Assembly: GCF_013368755.1 (NCBI RefSeq)
Contig: NC_049566.1
Span: 4,464,001-4,528,000 of the forward strand
Direction: 5' to 3'
From: Talaromyces rugulosus
Taxonomy: Eukaryota; Ascomycota; Eurotiomycetes; Eurotiales; Trichocomaceae
Length of the DNA: 64,000 nt
Shown: in pieces, positions 25,570 to 50,412 of the stretch
How positions within the stretch are numbered: the first letter of the stretch is position 1
Layout: every line of letters begins with the position of its first letter
Position numbers and translations under genes: made by a program
The notes under the pieces: generated by a model
Databases searched by the model: none
Seen by the model: only the letters and a program-made list of their open reading frames with translations
What the model was told of the DNA's origin: nothing

Positions 25570-26190
25570 GGGAATGTGGAATTCACGAATATATCTGAAC
25601 CGTAGATGTGAAGAAAACAAGGGAAGGCTAGCTGCGGGAGGAAATAACCCTAACGTTAAATGCGAAATGCGGGGAGGGTTAAACTTAATATAGAGCGCGT
25701 TTCTGGGCAGAAGTGGCCGGGTAGCATGGTTAGTTACCGATTACGTTAACTTAGCCAGCGCTACTTATGTAAACATTAGAGGATTGGACGTACATAGGTA
25801 ATACTACATTGCAAATCCGTGGAAGAGTCAGATTTGGAATTTTGACTGCAGTGACGACAATCGTCATTGATCTCGTGCTCGACAGGACCGCATTCAGGTG
25901 TAGGCTCAGGTCTAGGCTCCTGCACACCAGTCAAACGCCGATGGCCACTGGAGTCGATTAAATGACCTCATATGCCTAGTGCAGCTATTTGCAGAAGATC
26001 AATGAGAACGGCGTCTCGCCACAGTGACAAGAAGATGATGAAATCAACATAGTTAGCGTACATTGCACGCACTAGCGTGAGCCTATTAAAAAGTCCAGAG
26101 AAACAAAGCTTGGGTATTGAAATTGTTTGTATCTTTGGGTTTATCATTTGTCTCAAGCCGAAGATATCCTCCCACTCAGTGAGATTTATA
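25570..26190. other. intergenic with dispersed-repeat fragment
   Basis: Contains a short segment near 25729-25775 that shares GCTACTTATGTA and flanking TTAACTTAG-like sequence with the inverted-repeat element at 38671. No gene was found. Confidence 0.4.
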
Positions 26191-27573
26191 ATGGCGTCCA
26201 CAGCAGTCCAGGTGCCTCCCCGAGATCCGTGGTCCTCCAAAGACTTTGGAGCCATCGATAAGTGGCGGGCCAACGTCATCAAAAAAGCTGCGGTCCGTCC
26301 CGCATCCGAACTGGACCCCGTGGTTCTAAAGTTCCTTGACTTGCTGCAAAACAAGGAACTAGGTCTGGGGGATCTGGCGAATAAAATGCTCAACGAAGTC
26401 CCCTCGACCCCGACGTATGATTTCGATCCAAGTGGCGAATTTGGCCGCATGTCCGATTATCAACAAATGGTCCAGTGCATTAACCAGATTCTGTACACCG
26501 CGCCGTCTTGGGACCTCCCTGCGTATAAAGTCGGCTTGATTGGGGTCCCTTTCAATGCCCTCTTCAACTGGCCCATGGCAACCGAAAGCGGGTACAGGTT
26601 CTTCAAAAACAGCAAGGTCAACGCCTGCCTGAAGGATATTCTCCAAGCCCACGGCATGTACCTTCGATCTCCGAATTCCAAGTCGGTTCTCCCATCCTGG
26701 TTCACGGATGAGCCTCTCCAGATCATGACCGCAAAGGCCTCCCCATGTTGGCCCGATGGCGTAAAGAAAACTTTCAAGGACATCTACGTCTGCACTCCCA
26801 ACGACCCAACAAAATGCTGGGGCTTTAAGTCCTGGGACGACTTTTTCTCTCGCGAACTCCGTAAAGGTGTCCGGCCAGTCGACAAACCAGACAGAAACCA
26901 CGATCCGTTCGAGTCTAGCAAGGCAGTTATTGCGAATGCCTGCGAGTCTGTGGTGTACCGGTGCCAAGAGAAAGTGCAGAAGAAAGATCAATTCTGGCTC
27001 AAAGGACAGCCATACTCGCTAGCCGATATGCTAAATTTTGATGAGAGTGTTGACACATTTGTCGGGGGAACAGTCTACCAAGCATGGCTCGCTGCCGAAT
27101 GTTACCATCGATGGCACTCTCCGGTCACCGGGACCGTGAAGAAAATCGTCCACGTTCCTGGAACCTACTTTTCGGAGCTGCGAGGATATGGCTTCCCCGA
27201 GGTAGCAGGCGACCCGAATATCCCTGATCCCTCAGGTCCGAATCTTTCCCAGCGATACATCACTGCCGTGGCAACGCGAGCCCTTATCTTCATCGAAGCT
27301 GACAACCCTACCATCGGACTTATGTGTTTCATTGCAGTGGGGATGGACGAGATCTCAAGCTGTCAGGTCACAGTGAACGAGAACCAGTCAGTTATGAAGG
27401 GAGATGAACTTGGAATGTTCCACCTCGGAGGATCAAGTCATTGCTTGGTCTTCCGGCAGGGCGTGCATCTGGCCTTGACGAGAGCCGCTCAACCCCCGTA
27501 CAGCGACACCGAATTTGATAAACATACCATCATTCCAGTGAATTCGTGGCTCGCATACGCCCAACCAGCGTGA
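26191..27573 (+). CDS. phosphatidylserine-decarboxylase-like pyruvoyl enzyme (PsiD/amino-acid-decarboxylase type)
   Basis: Single exon, 460 residues, no mitochondrial signal or transmembrane segment. The PSD fold is marked by WDDFFSRELRKGVRP, CYHRWHSPVTGTV and the C-terminal FHLGGSSHCLVF, where self-cleavage at Gly-Ser creates the pyruvoyl cofactor. The long N-terminal region (RYDFDPSGE-type start, SWDLPAYKVGLIG) resembles the fungal PSD-like group that includes the tryptophan decarboxylase PsiD, rather than membrane PSDs. Decarboxylation of an amino acid or small carboxylate is thus more likely than phospholipid synthesis. The ATG at 26191 follows a short leader. It is intact and flanked by decayed genes. 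Confidence 0.85.
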   Translation: MASTAVQVPPRDPWSSKDFGAIDKWRANVIKKAAVRPASELDPVVLKFLDLLQNKELGLGDLANKMLNEVPSTPTYDFDPSGEFGRMSDYQQMVQCINQILYTAPSWDLPAYKVGLIGVPFNALFNWPMATESGYRFFKNSKVNACLKDILQAHGMYLRSPNSKSVLPSWFTDEPLQIMTAKASPCWPDGVKKTFKDIYVCTPNDPTKCWGFKSWDDFFSRELRKGVRPVDKPDRNHDPFESSKAVIANACESVVYRCQEKVQKKDQFWLKGQPYSLADMLNFDESVDTFVGGTVYQAWLAAECYHRWHSPVTGTVKKIVHVPGTYFSELRGYGFPEVAGDPNIPDPSGPNLSQRYITAVATRALIFIEADNPTIGLMCFIAVGMDEISSCQVTVNENQSVMKGDELGMFHLGGSSHCLVFRQGVHLALTRAAQPPYSDTEFDKHTIIPVNSWLAYAQPA

Positions 27574-39375: not shown

Positions 39376-40253
39376 ATGCAGTTAACATACGTCGCCTTCT
39401 TTTCCTTCTTTCACCTTCTTATATCCATCAATGCCTCTGTGGACTGCAATAAATTTGCAACTGACTCAGTGAATAAATTCCAAGCTCTTGTACCTTTACT
39501 TGAGCAGATTGTCCCTACCATACAAAACAACTCAGTGCTTTCGCATCACCTCAGTCAGCAAAAAAGTTTCAATCTCGGCTATTATACAAAAAATGTTACC
39601 AAGACAATTGACGTCATCAATACAGCCACCCAACTACGGAAAGATCAGTTGCATACAGAATTGGTCCAAAAGTGTTCCCAAAACTCCACAGATTCGCATG
39701 CCCGTCGTGATCACCACCATCACCATCACAAAGGTGGAGTGTTAGAAGAAGTGCTAGGAGACGTCTCCGACATCGAGGACGACATCATAGAGCCGGTTGA
39801 ATCAGCCATAGGCGACGTCTCTGACATCGAGAACGACATCATAAAGCCGGTTGAATCAGACATAGACGAAACAGGCAGTCTTCTCGGCTTAGATATCATT
39901 ACTGAAATTCTTGATCTCATAATGGCTCTGCTCGATTCATTGCTCGGCGGCCTAGGAGAAATTGCAGTAAGCCTGACTAATATCTATTGACAAATATAAT
40001 AAGCTAACTTTAACCCTCTACTCAAGGGTGAAACTTTTGATGATGCAGATAACATTGCAGTAAGTCTGATTAATATCTATTGACAAGTATAGTAAACTAA
40101 CTTGAACTTTCTGCTTCTAGGTTGAAATTGATGAAGATGCGAGTGATATTGCAGTAAGTCTGGTCAATATTTATTGACAAGTGTAATAAGCTAACTTGAA
40201 CCTTCTACTTCAAGGATGACATCGGGGATGATATCTTTGGACAAGTATCATAA
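39376..40253 (+). CDS. secreted acidic, His-rich protein with tandem intron/mini-exon 3' end
   Basis: Exon 1 (39376-39966) encodes a signal peptide (MQLTYVAFFSFFHLLISINA), a Cys-containing N-terminal domain and a HARR dibasic site. Six consecutive His (39712-39729) and two 18-residue acidic repeats (DVSDIEDDIIEPVES / DVSDIENDIIKPVES) follow. Three introns (39967-40026, 40060-40120, 40154-40214) are near-identical, phase 0 and start GTAAG. They separate 33-nt exons at 40027-40059 and 40121-40153 and a last exon at 40215-40253. Joined, the tail reads IAGETFDDADNIA, VEIDEDASDIA and DDIGDDIFGQVS, total 231 residues. If intron 1 is retained the protein ends VSLTNIY instead. Family unknown. His and Asp richness suggests metal binding, by inference. 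Confidence 0.65.
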
Positions 40254-41259
40254 ACTACAGTCGGTTGGTTGGTTGGTTGATTTCATATACCCTGACCTTC
40301 GCAATCAAGCGATCTGCAGGCTACCAAAACTGCAACTATGCTTGTATCTCTATTGTACATGTACCCATTTCTTACGGGCGAACTTTGTGCCTCGCCTAAG
40401 GGCCTGTGGTGGCCGTTTGCCTTTGATTCTATTCTTGCCGGCCCTTGGCCCAGTCGTGTTTATCTCAGCTCTCAGACCTACTATGAGGAATTTCAAACCA
40501 AGCTGAATATCTCCAAATCCACAACCATTAGGCCTCCGAATTTTTGAACTCCTAGCCAGCAACCCAGACAGTTTCAATTGAACGTGTTGCCTTGATATCC
40601 TCAATAGGATTGTCTCTGATCAAAACCAAATCGAGGCGGACCGACCTGCTATCCGATGTAATCCGAAGATATTAAAATTCCCAACTTGTTCGGGCCGAAC
40701 CAAACAAGCCACGGCATCATAGTTCCTCTGACCTCTTAGTCTATATGTCTAAGCTCGGGCTGATCTAGATGAAAGTTTGCAGATGCTTACATTGGGTGTA
40801 TGGGTACTTACGCATACTACTAGTATATACCAGTAACGTAATTGGATATGTAGGATATTTCTACGTTGCTTTGGAACATGAAGGTGGTCTAATGTATAAC
40901 TAATTGAAAAATTAACAGTTGACATTGAAACCAAATCATATGATACATGTATTCAAATCTTGACGGATATCTTTTCACCCCACAATTTCAGTTATATCAA
41001 CTGTTCCATCAATATATGAAGATTATAGATAAATTGATATAAGAAAAGACATCGGACATGTTGCGGGAACTAGTCCTGTTTGGGAATGCTACTATCTCAT
41101 TATTGGCTGGCTATATGCTATGGCCCCACATCTCGGCGCTGCCCCGCGATGACCTCATGTTTCCAGGAGTATTAATAATTCGATTTGACCCTTTTATATA
41201 GCAATGCTTTCCCTCTAGATGTAAATAATAAACGAAGAAACTGCGAAAAACTGCCAAAA
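40254..41259. other. intergenic between secreted protein and NmrA-like gene
   Basis: A short TTGG tandem run lies at about 40261-40276. Otherwise no feature was found. Confidence 0.4.
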
Positions 41260-44872: not shown

Positions 44873-47800
44873 TTATTCATTGTCGCCCACCCGCAGCTCA
44901 ACCACAGGCAGATCCTCATCCTCGTCTGCCGGGACGCTGTGAAAGTTGGTCGTAGAGTTGTCGCCCTCGACAAACTGCTCCAGATCGCTCATGTCGCCTC
45001 CACCCACAGCTTTATTGCTGCTGTCGCTGTCGTTATCGTCAAAATCATTGCTCCCTGACAGCCGGTCAAACGACCACGCAGGCTGGTCGCGCGGAAAACT
45101 CGACGACTCGAGATCCATGCGCTGCTCGTACGGCGGCAACTCTTCCTCATCTTCGTCGCTCGCCTCAACCTCCACGCTCTTCACTCGCAGCCCGGATCGC
45201 AAACCACCATCTCCCGCTTGGTGAGCTGCTCCGACTCCGACTAAGGCGCTCGTAGACCCATTGCGGGAGGAGTCGACGAGGCGCCGGCCTTCCCCCAAAG
45301 GGGACCCCGATTCATCTTCTTGCCCGTCAGAGTCGGCTCGCACCGAACTCTCAGTGATTTCCTGTAGTTCTTTGCCGCCCAGCGGGTGCTCTGATCGTCG
45401 CCGGTAGAACAACAGATATGCCGCTGTCGAGATGGCCTTGGCCGGATTGATTGCTTTAGATACATGGGAGTCTATTCCATTAGCCATGCCCTAGTAAATC
45501 CATATACTTTGTACTCACCATTGTATTCATTCCACTCATCAGTCAGAAAATTCTTCGCATATGCTGTGTAGTGCCCGCCCCCAAGGCCGCCGTAATGGTT
45601 GTCCACTGCAAAAAGATCGTAGATCTGATTCTCCTCCGGCGCCGCTGATGCGATCCGACCGTTGAGATCCAGCCCCTCGATCGGGAAGTCTACCAGCTCG
45701 TCGATTTTATCCCTAAACCCTCGGCTCGCACTAAATCTCTTGAGGTGAATAACCAAAATGTCTGGTGCCTTCCACAGCTCAAATTTCTTGCTCGCGCGCC
45801 GATGCTCCTTGCACCGCGGGCAATACCACGCGTCATTCTCCGACAAAATTTCCTCGCGGCCAAACTCATCCAGACACTGATCCAGTGTCAGACCCCTCTT
45901 TCTTCGACTGGCCCGTTGTGCCCGCCTCTTGGCCAGGTCTTCGTCTGGCAAATGCTCTACATTCGTCCACGTTGGCGCACCGCGCAGCTCGTCGCGACTC
46001 TTGGCGTCTGCACCAAACATTCCATCATAGCTCGTCTCTTTCCAGTCCAGAACAATACCCTCACCCGGCCGAATATACGAAACTTTGGGTACTTCAACCT
46101 CTTGAGGTACTGCTTGAATGTCGTCATCAGACTCGCTGTCCGCTGCTAGGAATCGCGCCGACTCGCCAGAACTCGTGCTGATCCGAGAATGCCGTTTCGT
46201 TGTCGGTGCCTGGATCGTGTTTATCTCATCATCGCTGCTGACTGGGCTGTCCGGGCTGTTTTTAAAGGCATTTCGCTTCTCGGCTTTCCGCACAGTGGGC
46301 TTTGCCTTTTGTTTCGGTATCCGTGTTGACATCAACATATAGTTTGAGTTATCGTCCACCGACGAGAAACCCAACGGAATAACTTCATTCTTTGACTTGA
46401 CAACTCTCATTTCAAAAAGATGGCGGAAGCGCGATGGCAACGTCTTTCGTGTTTTTGTCGTGTCAGGTCGTGCCGCGCTAGGAGCAGCATCTTCCATGGA
46501 CACGTCGACGAGACCATCCTCGCTTTGTACAGACGCAGCCTTGACTTTGTCGTCCGAGTCGGCATCATCTGCGTCCATGATGACAGCGTCCGAATCAATC
46601 GACTCGTCTTCGCCTGCATCTTCGTTGAGAAAGTCTCGTGTCGTCAAAGTGGCAACCTCTTGCAACACCTTGAGAAGAACAGTATCGTAATCAAGAGCCT
46701 CTTCGCGAGTAATGACGACAAAAGACGGCGCACCGAACGTCTGTCGAGACCCAAAGCGCGTGTTTGGTCGGTGGACACGGTTAAAAATAGGCACAAGGAG
46801 CTTCTCGGCGCGAGGAGAATCGATCTTGGGAATATCCTCGTGGTCCATGTTGCTAAACGACGTGTAGTAAGACGTCTTCTTGGGTCGGTCCGGGTTATAA
46901 TTAGTTGGCACCATTTCCACCTCGAAAATGGCAATATCGTCCGACGAACTGATATTGCTGTCCGCGACGGTGCTGGTATTGTCGAATAACTTGTAAAACT
47001 TTTCCTTGTAAATTTCCGCCATGATAAGTTTCTGCGGGTCTGCTCCAGTCTTTGATGCTACAAGCTCCTTGAGGGCTTTGATGCTGGCGTTCTTGTCAAT
47101 TTCAATGTCGAGAAGCATAGGAGCTTTGTGAAAGGGAAAATAGAAAATGTCCTTTGTCCACAGATTCTCAACAGGAAGCTGAAGAGTCAGGTTGTTAAAG
47201 GGGTCGAATATGATGCTAACTTTGTCACAACTCGGGCACACCAGGGTCGACTTGTACATTCCGGCAAACAAATCAGTAACAACCGAATCGTTGCGAGCCT
47301 TGTAAATGTCCCAACATTTATCTGCAAACTCCTTCAAGGCGGCTGGGTTGTTCACCATCTCGTCAGTCGAGTCTGGCTTTTCAATGTAGGGCTTCTTCAT
47401 AATCCGGTTAAGATCTTCATGAAGACCATCGAGGAGGAAAAGAAGAAACTCCTGAGAATCCTGCTGACCATAGCCAGAAAAGGCGGGCCCGTACCGTCCG
47501 ATTGTATTTTTAAACTGTTTGGGCGAGAATGAAGCCGGACCCTCGTCGTAGACGGCATGTAGTAGGTTAGAATATGCCTTGGCAACATCTCCATTGTGGG
47601 CCAAAGGGTTGCTAGGGTTGAGGTCTTTTTTATGGTAGTTATCTATCAAGTCAGTACAGGAATAGAAAAAAAAGGCAAGTGATAAACTCACTCAAAAAGT
47701 AGTAGCTTAGCTCTTCAACACTTCGAACACATTGCAGTGCCGAGGCCATGTAACATGTATTTCCCAAATTGGTAAATCCAGTGTTCCCCTTAGGCCGGCC

Positions 47801-49189
47801 GTCTTTCTTCCTCCCTCGAATCGGCTCAGACGTAGGCGTTGTTCTTCCGCTGGTAGTGAGGGCTTTGGACTTGACCTTGGCGGTGCCAGGTTTATTACCA
47901 CTAGGGATGGAGAGACGGTTCAGAGTAGACTTGGAGGCGTCAGACACCCACTCTCCTCCACCAGGGCCGCCGATCTGTTCTTCCAGGACCAAAACGGCGT
48001 TGTCTCCGAGTCCAAATGTGTCGAGGGTAGACTTACCGTTGTATTTGTCGTTGTGTGTTTGGTCCTTGGCCTCTTCGATCAGCTCCCGGTGCGTGTCCGA
48101 AAGGGAAGCGAATGTATTGACATCCAGGACCAAACTGTTGCCGGCATTTGCGACTAGCTGTGCCCCCGGCGCGGGCGAGTTACTTCTCGAATGAACGGGG
48201 GTAATAAAGCCCGAAGTCTGCGTGCTGCTCAAACCGTCAAGAACCCTCCAAACGCGGACCTTGGTTGCCATGTCGATGTGAGCGAGCTCCTTGGCCTTGG
48301 TAAGCCATTTCTGAAAGTTGGTCTGTCTGCTAGCGAGGAATTTGGCGGGCGGGGCGCTCTTGTCCCTTAGTGTGTGGTGGGAAAAGCCACTGGATGAACT
48401 CGGCAGCTTGTGGATGGTGTAGATTGGCGGTGAAACCTCGTACTGGATATTCTGAGAACCGCCGTCGCTTGTATTATGTGCATATCGAACGATGGCCGGA
48501 GACTGCTCCGCCTGTCCATACCAGCCCAAAATAAGATCCCACGCAGTCTGGGGAACGATTTCAAAATCCTCGCCCATCTGCAGGCCCGGGCGTAAGGGTA
48601 CAAACGGCTCCCCAGCTTCATCCTCAAAGACACTGCTCGGATCAACATCCAAAACAAGATCGGAATTATCGACCGGTCCAATCTCGCCCTCGGCGAATTT
48701 CTTATCGACCGTTTTGCCGCCGGGCTCCTGTGTGCTTCGGGCGAGAACGCGGTTCAACCAGTTGTAAGACAGGACGTAACCCTTTTGCTTGTCCTCGGGG
48801 AACCTTTGGGCGAGTTCCAGCACACGCATGACCTGTTCGTCGATCGACGGGGGTTCCAAGGCTTTGTGGGGCGTGGGTACTTCTTTTGTGGACGACGAAT
48901 TAGTGTATGTCGCCATACTGGACGGGGTAGGGTAAACGGGGTCAGAGTTGTTGGGCGAAGCAGTGTTATTGGCCATATCGGCGTCTCCCTCGCTGGCAAT
49001 CATGTCGACCGAAGTGGCACGGCGCTGAGCAGGGCGCGAGTCGCCGTCGGGCGTTTCCTGCCGCTGCTGTTGGGGGTCGGATGCTCCAGAGTCCATGTCA
49101 ACGTCGTCGGCGGTCTGGTCGACCTCGGACATGCGGCGTTTGACAGCGGGCGACGACGAGCGCACGTCGGACTTTTCAGAGCCGGACAT
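44873..49189 (-). CDS. ubiquitin carboxyl-terminal hydrolase, USP4/15-Ubp12-like with DUSP domain
   Basis: Large deubiquitinase in three exons. The ATG at 49189 begins a region rich in Ser and acidic residues. The frame extends upstream to an ATG at 49753 through low-complexity sequence. A DUSP-like segment runs through VLSYNWLNRVLA and WDLILGWYGQ. The USP Cys box is GFTNLGNTCYMASALQC. An intron at 47690-47643 joins to NNYHKKDLNPSNPL. The QDSQEFLLFLLDGLHEDLNR block follows, then CPSCDKVS/CPRCKEH zinc-knuckle Cys pairs. The His box is YGGLGGGHYTAYAKN. The second intron, near 45534, joins EYN to DSHVSKA, and ISTAAYLLFYRRR closes the domain. An acidic tail follows. It should remove ubiquitin from substrates. 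Confidence 0.88.
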
Positions 49190-50412
49190 GTCGGTGGGAG
49201 GATCGCTGTTGAGCGAGAGCCCAGCGCAAGCCGCAGCGGGCGACGGCTCTGGGGTAGGCGAGCGGGCGGTTGTTGGTGGTGTCCGGCCAGCGCCGAGCAC
49301 CTCGTCTTGCAGGTGGGCAGGGATGTAACGGGGAGACGGCGACGAGGATGATTTCACGGGGAGGTTGTTGGTGGTGGAGTTGTGAGAAGCAGTCGTCGTG
49401 GACGAACGGCGGCGGTGGTGACGTCTGTCTCTGTCTCTGTCCGAGTTTGCGGGCCTGGTCCGTGAGGCAGGCGCGGGCGAGTGCGGGCGAGGCTGCTCGA
49501 CGACCTTGCGGCGCTTCGAGGAAGACGTGGTGAAGGTGAGCTGCCCACGTCGCGTGGCAGCTCGTAAAAACACGGTGGTCGATGAGGTAGAGCGCAGATA
49601 GGCAGACGACGAGAGATGTCGAGGGTCACTGCTGCTAGAAGGGGAGAGAGAAAAAAAGAGAGAGAGGCGAAGGGCAGGATCCACGCAAGGGCCACGGACC
49701 ACCGGACTTGTCACCTCGATAATTCTTCCCTGGTCTAGTCGATAAACTAACAATTAAAGATGATTATTAGTGGTCGTAATAGATGTGTAGACTAGCCAGT
49801 TGCCGCCGACAAGGAATGATTTAAAAAAAAGGGAAAAAAAAAAAAGGATCGCTCGATGTGGAGTTTAGTTGCAACTTTAGCCCGCTTGTTGGCGCTTGAT
49901 AACGTTAACCTGTTTGTCACTTGTTCTTTTTTGTTTTTTTCTTCTTCTTTTCTTTTTTTGCTGCACTGCTGAATGGCAGGCAGTAGTTAGTCGAGTTGCT
50001 ATTCGAAGGAGAGAGTGTGTGCGATGGCTTTGTTGGTGGTAGTCGAGGATCTCCACTGCGATTATCATTCTTGCTGAACGACCTTGACGCTGTCTCCCCC
50101 CATCGCAGCCTTACGTAAACACCACGATCGGCGTCCAGGCAGAAGCGGAGATGACGAGCGCGTGCAGATGTTGATTTGATATCTTTTAATGATTTGCGTG
50201 TCGTGTGAAGTTGTTTTTCCGGTCTTCCCGCTGACAGTGGCAGGTGATGGAAGAAGCACTCTACGGTCAGGTGAGCTCTACATCTATATACTTGGCTCTA
50301 CTATGAACGCTGCATTTATAAGAGCTATCAGTTATTAGAGTATCGTGGTGTCTCTCATTAGTGAATACAATAACCTAATCCTATACAAAAACCAAACTAT
50401 CTATAGTCTTTC
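49190..50412. other. upstream region with pyrimidine tracts
   Basis: 49190-49753 is open in the deubiquitinase frame but low-complexity. Beyond it, 49815-50100 has A and T homopolymer runs typical of a fungal core promoter. No other gene was found. Confidence 0.45.

Follow-up and report, generated by a model that had tools for sequence, protein, structure and literature searches.

A tandem array of introns and 33-nt exons at the 3′ end of a Talaromyces rugulosus gene, with a putatively coding fourth copy of the intron core

Introduction

Growth in intron number by way of repeats that themselves carry introns is represented by few worked cases in the available text of the sources (PMC2395259; others are named in PMC4974935). 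In CNN00420 of Cryptococcus neoformans, tandem repeats of ~107 nt, supported by ESTs, contain an entire intron together with exon ends. According to the available sections of that report (Sharpton et al. 2008, PMC2395259), the number of units is polymorphic among strains and the introns are identical or nearly so. A related route is intron birth by tandem duplication (the Rogers model; potato RdRp, PMC4974935), in which intron number is raised and splice signals are inherited from the parental intron-exon structure; its strict form, as presented in the available part of that source, makes a new intron from a copy of an AGGT-bearing exon. Several similar short introns are also characteristic of fungal introner-like elements, as portrayed in the accessible text of PMC4457414 and PMC9860276. 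The accessible part of PMC8786786 yielded no intron array. Exchange in the direction of coding sequence, or de-intronization, is called rare in the sections available, fission yeast having a single case backed by transcripts (PMC3629103), while in Cryptococcus none was found (PMC2740785).

Here we describe an intron-exon array at the 3′ end of TRUGW13939_11865, a gene for an uncharacterized protein of T. rugulosus W13939, the genome of which comprises 35.76 Mb in six contigs. Its closest precedent is CNN00420, and the class of mechanism, local duplication of an intron-exon unit, is an ordinary one. As far as the available sections of PMC2395259 allow comparison, both are single-copy fungal genes in which the repeat takes in a whole intron and exon ends and several similar introns occur per gene, and both also contain shorter exonic repeats (~39 nt in CNN00420, 54 nt in T. 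rugulosus). The T. rugulosus copies, however, are 82-85% identical and known from one genome sequence, whereas CNN00420 has ESTs and strain data; moreover, the host is an ascomycete, and exon 4 of its gene includes a fourth intron-core copy. This exon-4 copy is the new element here, arrays of such a kind being already known. Set against the strict Rogers model, T. rugulosus seems to multiply a pre-existing intron along with its exon, and the locus differs from the introner-like elements of the sources cited above in that no dispersed copies were found and the duplicated unit includes an exon. At this locus a single gene contains both a set of intron copies and, next to them, a copy that seems to have been converted, and the array suggests how intron and exon can change places.

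Results and Discussion

The gene and its first exon

The window analyzed here, to which all positions refer, is the 64-kb stretch C6:4464001-4528000 in the genome of the eurotialean mould T. rugulosus, and every feature of the gene lies on the forward (+) strand. The gene starts at ATG 39376, the position at which the NCBI protein also starts. An upstream TTG and then an ATG (39250) are open in the same frame; the deposited protein begins at 39376. Exon 1 (39376..39966) opens with hydrophobic codons that, judged by eye, specify a signal peptide; then come an N-terminal region, a dibasic RR, six histidines, two acidic repeats of 18 aa, a hydrophobic stretch and the terminal residues GEIA. Judging from the signal peptide, the product looks like a small secreted protein. 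The acidic repeats, LGDVSDIEDDIIEPVESA and IGDVSDIENDIIKPVESD, are encoded by two in-frame 54-nt tandem repeats (39754..39861) that are 91% identical in the register of the repeat finder (Tandem Repeats Finder, 39755-39869, period 54). The histidines form a natural run of six after RR-D (39703-39729), and by eye the dibasic pair is a possible Kex2-type site.

Three protein searches matched the deposited protein alone: one at E ≤0.01 (among 426 candidates), one with residues 1-120 at E ≤10 (among 11) and one with residues 118-226 at E ≤10 (among 232); such searches require shared 5-residue words, and distant relatives may escape them. No paralogue was found in the 35.76-Mb genome, and the locus-tag prefix TRUGW13939 was not mentioned in the literature searched. 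The only Pfam match, to PrnB (E 0.039), scored 13.2 bits where the cut-off is 27 and was taken as chance.

Structure of the intron-exon array

Exon 1 is followed by three introns of 60, 61 and 61 nt (intron 1, 39967..40026; intron 2, 40060..40120; intron 3, 40154..40214). Between them lie two 33-nt exons, exon 2 (40027..40059; GETFDDADNIA) and exon 3 (40121..40153; VEIDEDASDIA), and after them an exon 4 of 39 nt (40215..40253) that encodes DDIGDDIFGQVS and the stop. All introns are in phase 0. The tandem unit holds a whole intron plus exon ends: unit 1 (39961..40053, 93 nt) consists of ATTGCA, intron 1 and 27 nt of exon 2, and unit 2 (40054..40147, 94 nt) of ATTGCA, intron 2 and 27 nt of exon 3. 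Tandem Repeats Finder describes the array with a period of 94, 2.8 copies and a score of 341.

The splice signals are repeated along with the units. Donors read GCA/GTAAGC in intron 1 and GCA/GTAAGT in introns 2 and 3, and a putative branch site, CTAACTT, is present in 3/3 introns, its A always 40 nt from the donor. The AG ends 19, 20 and 20 nt past this A in introns 1, 2 and 3, respectively, and the acceptor is in each case the first AG past the branch (AAG, TAG and AAG). AAG, with which introns 1 and 3 end, is the weaker acceptor. Intron lengths differ by one base only, both internal exons stay at 33 nt, and each intron contains in-phase stops in the order TGA, TAA or TAG, and TAA.

The initial annotation had given the same intron coordinates and lengths and the same donor, branch and AG motifs, all of which proved correct when the sequence was read again; so did its period of 93-94 nt and its two 33-nt phase-0 exons ending in ATTGCA, with a joined frame that closes at TAA 40251-40253. 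Splicing of all three introns would, we infer, give a protein of 231 aa. The description of the introns as near-identical was too strong, since the copies agree in 50, 51 and 52 of 61 columns (82-85%). This divergence of 15-18% makes it unlikely that the array is an echo produced by assembly.

The deposited model reads this DNA independently of the initial annotation. Its borders for introns 1 and 2 are precisely those proposed, which supports both introns, but it retains intron 3 and stops at the TGA inside it; the resulting NCBI protein (P0001, 226 aa) ends in GEIA-GETFDDADNIA-VEIDEDASDIA-VSLVNIY.

A survey of 264 kb, made up of the 64-kb window and twenty 10-kb segments sampled from contigs C1-C4, gave 98 array rows. 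Four of these, with a period of at least 45, were tested for the donor-branch-acceptor pattern, and the single match among the four was the present array. One of the segments from contig C1 contains a 63/81-nt tandem repeat array (L011:1388-1767), which did not match the splice-signal pattern.

Genome searches for further copies

Two origins had been suggested for the array in the initial annotation, segmental duplication of an intron plus exon unit and introner-like amplification. The former is supported by the sequence, because the copies stand head to tail, have diverged and occupy one locus, and because the deposited model agrees on the splice sites of introns 1 and 2. As to the latter, searches of the genome with the array, a whole intron and degenerate patterns found no dispersed copy and located the introns here only. 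The 293-bp array, used as a query against the 35.76 Mb, matched itself only. The 5′ half of the intron, expressed as a degenerate pattern with ≤3 mismatches, found three sites in the whole genome, namely the three introns, and its reversed control found 0. One whole intron as a DNA query matched itself and intron 1 across the genome; intron 3 was missing from its matches, and this search is therefore not exhaustive. Words that are very common in the genome are passed over by the DNA search, so that true copy numbers can be higher than its counts.

Exons 2 and 3 differ by 2 synonymous and 8 nonsynonymous changes (pS 0.31, pN 0.30), with no signal of diversifying selection on the mini-exons.

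A fourth intron-core copy within exon 4

The three introns of the initially described three-unit array stand, and a fourth, partial copy at 40231..40257 had been overlooked. The repeat finder places it at a spacing of 64 instead of 94 nt. It is identical to introns 1, 2 and 3 at 22, 23 and 21 of 27 nt, respectively, and lies in the introns' frame, the offset of the core within the codon frame being 1 in all four copies; in the joined frame it would encode the C-terminal residues and the stop. At the place where the introns read NIY-stop-Q[V/I]-stop-stop, exon 4 reads DIFGQVS-stop. In the best local alignment the similarity runs to 40257, which is four bases past the stop and inside the branch motif, with no continuation into the 3′ UTR. 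Just beyond this point, 9 nt past the stop codon, are four consecutive GGTT units (40263-40278).

The best local score of the fourth copy, 34, was reached by 0/2000 dinucleotide shuffles of the flank (mean 17), although the 27-nt stretch was chosen after the match was seen and the shuffle maximum of 33 is close to the observed value. In the rest of the 64 kb, 0/884 windows reached this score (maximum 25). When a pattern derived from the three introns alone was run against the 35.76-Mb genome with ≤3 mismatches, it found 4 forward and 0 reverse sites, and the reversed control found 0; the four sites were the three introns (0 mismatches) and the exon-4 site (3 mismatches). When the pattern was loosened to admit the bases of the fourth copy itself, two further distant sites appeared at 3 mismatches, and the control had one match.

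Both directions of exchange find something to attach to in these data. If a new intron had been made from exonic sequence, as the Rogers model proposes, a resemblance to exon would be looked for, and the intron core does resemble coding exon 4. If intron had become exon, the relevant features are that the exon-4 copy is in frame and free of internal stops, in the sequence of one genome. Four random differences would remove both in-frame stops with a probability of ~0.13, so stop loss is weak evidence that the fourth copy is coding. In likeness to de-intronization as treated in the available text of PMC3629103, former intron sequence would have become coding, in frame and with its stops removed; the T. 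rugulosus case differs in that the copies compared belong to a single gene and are not orthologues, and in that the converted copy would supply the stop.

A proposed history and its alternatives

We consider it probable that the array arose by local duplication, that its three introns are spliced to give 231 aa, and that exon 4 represents a fourth unit in which the intron has turned coding. Units composed of ATTGCA, a short U2-type intron and a 27-nt exon body would have multiplied locally by slippage or unequal exchange. The last unit would then have become shorter by ~30 nt net, with its 5′ splice site among the bases lost, and in its intron core, now translated, substitutions would have removed the in-frame TGA and TAG/TAA. 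With the last TAA kept as the stop of the gene, the former intron core would encode the C-terminus, an intron-to-exon conversion. Each unit would add 11 residues, equal to three turns of an acidic amphipathic helix, and gain or loss of units by duplication, or exon skipping, would leave the frame and the helical face intact.

The opposite direction of exchange would have introns born from duplicated 3′ ends of the gene (the last codons, the stop and the start of the 3′ UTR) that were later spliced out, so that translation entered the next copy. The in-frame resemblance of the intron cores to the last codons of exon 4 and its stop fits such an origin, as does the occurrence in every intron of TGA, then TAA or TAG, then TAA in phase. 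A new donor, branch site and acceptor would be required, however, and the loss of one donor is simpler; the failure of the local alignment to run on into the 3′ UTR beyond 40257 also argues against it, and we judge this direction distinctly unlikely. A mobile, introner-like intron family that landed three times in one gene is extremely improbable. In its favor, the introns are more alike (82-85%) than the exons (23/33), but not significantly so (Fisher p 0.20 and 0.063; 0.17 for rough, hand-entered nonsynonymous counts), the similarity between units extends into the exons in register, and no copy was found elsewhere in the genome, in searches whose counts are lower bounds.

Which way the exchange ran is a different question from whether intron 3 is spliced, and the likelihoods given here for the various readings overlap. 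Splicing of intron 3 is plausible from its signals, although it is contradicted by the NCBI model, and were that model right, introns 1 and 2 would be spliced, intron 3 kept, and exon 4 would be a noncoding remnant of a fourth unit behind a protein that ends in VSLVNIY (226 aa). This arrangement has the deposited model itself in its favor, but the donor of intron 3 is that of intron 2, the branch site and spacing are the same, and its AAG acceptor is that of intron 1, which P0001 does splice. Short terminal exons, moreover, are often overlooked by automated gene prediction. On balance we think it unlikely that the model is right on this point, while giving it more weight than any other alternative considered here. 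It is very improbable that nothing is spliced and that the gene is a single exon of 204 codons closed by the TGA of intron copy 1, the remaining units being tandem repeats within the 3′ UTR. The frame does close at that TGA; against this, splice signals are complete in 3/3 copies although the surrounding bases differ, the exons between the introns are 33 nt and open, the tail that they form when joined shares the acidic, amphipathic character of the repeats in exon 1, and the NCBI model splices two of the introns.

The acidic tail and computed splice outcomes

If all three introns are removed, the joined tail reads AGETFDDADNI / AVEIDEDASDI / ADDIGDDIFGQ-VS, with a net charge of -14 over 38 residues from GEIA. 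An acidic tail growing by 11 residues per unit, as the initial annotation had it, is correct on the sequence of the two 33-nt exons. The hydrophobic moment of the tail is highest at 100 degrees (0.366), and 37/5000 shuffles were as high within 90-110 degrees; the 18-residue repeats of exon 1 likewise peak at 100 degrees (0.435), a value reached by 3/5000 shuffles. Eleven and 18 residues correspond to three and five helical turns, so that both kinds of duplication would keep the helix in register, and the units could lengthen an acidic amphipathic helix in this way. The 11-residue unit suggests why such an array could be tolerated, since frame and helix face are kept together. AlphaFold2, run on the single sequence of the NCBI form, returned a mostly helical model with a mean pLDDT of 47.5, too poor for a fold search.

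The consequences of alternative splicing were computed. Full splicing gives 231 aa, skipping of exon 2, exon 3 or both gives 220, 220 and 209 aa, and retention of intron 1, 2 or 3 gives 204, 215 and 226 aa with the tail VSL[T/I/V]NIY; all seven outcomes are in frame. The array might accordingly be imagined as a length ladder read by splicing, in which introns double as alternative coding ends and splicing efficiency tunes the length and end of the acidic helix, a proposal that we hold to be improbable. Were it true, the fully spliced form would end in an exonized intron copy and the retained forms would share the tail VSL[T/I/V]NIY, while steps of 11 residues would hold the helical register, and the cell could tune the helix by splicing alone.

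Other coding sequences in the window

On the reverse (-) strand, 45472-49753 contains two overlapping ORFs with pieces of a ubiquitin hydrolase, one with DUSP and the start of UCH and the other with the rest of UCH; the pair is perhaps one gene interrupted by an intron. On the forward (+) strand, 26077-27573 is an ORF of the phosphatidylserine decarboxylase type (PSDC and PS_Dcarbxylase).
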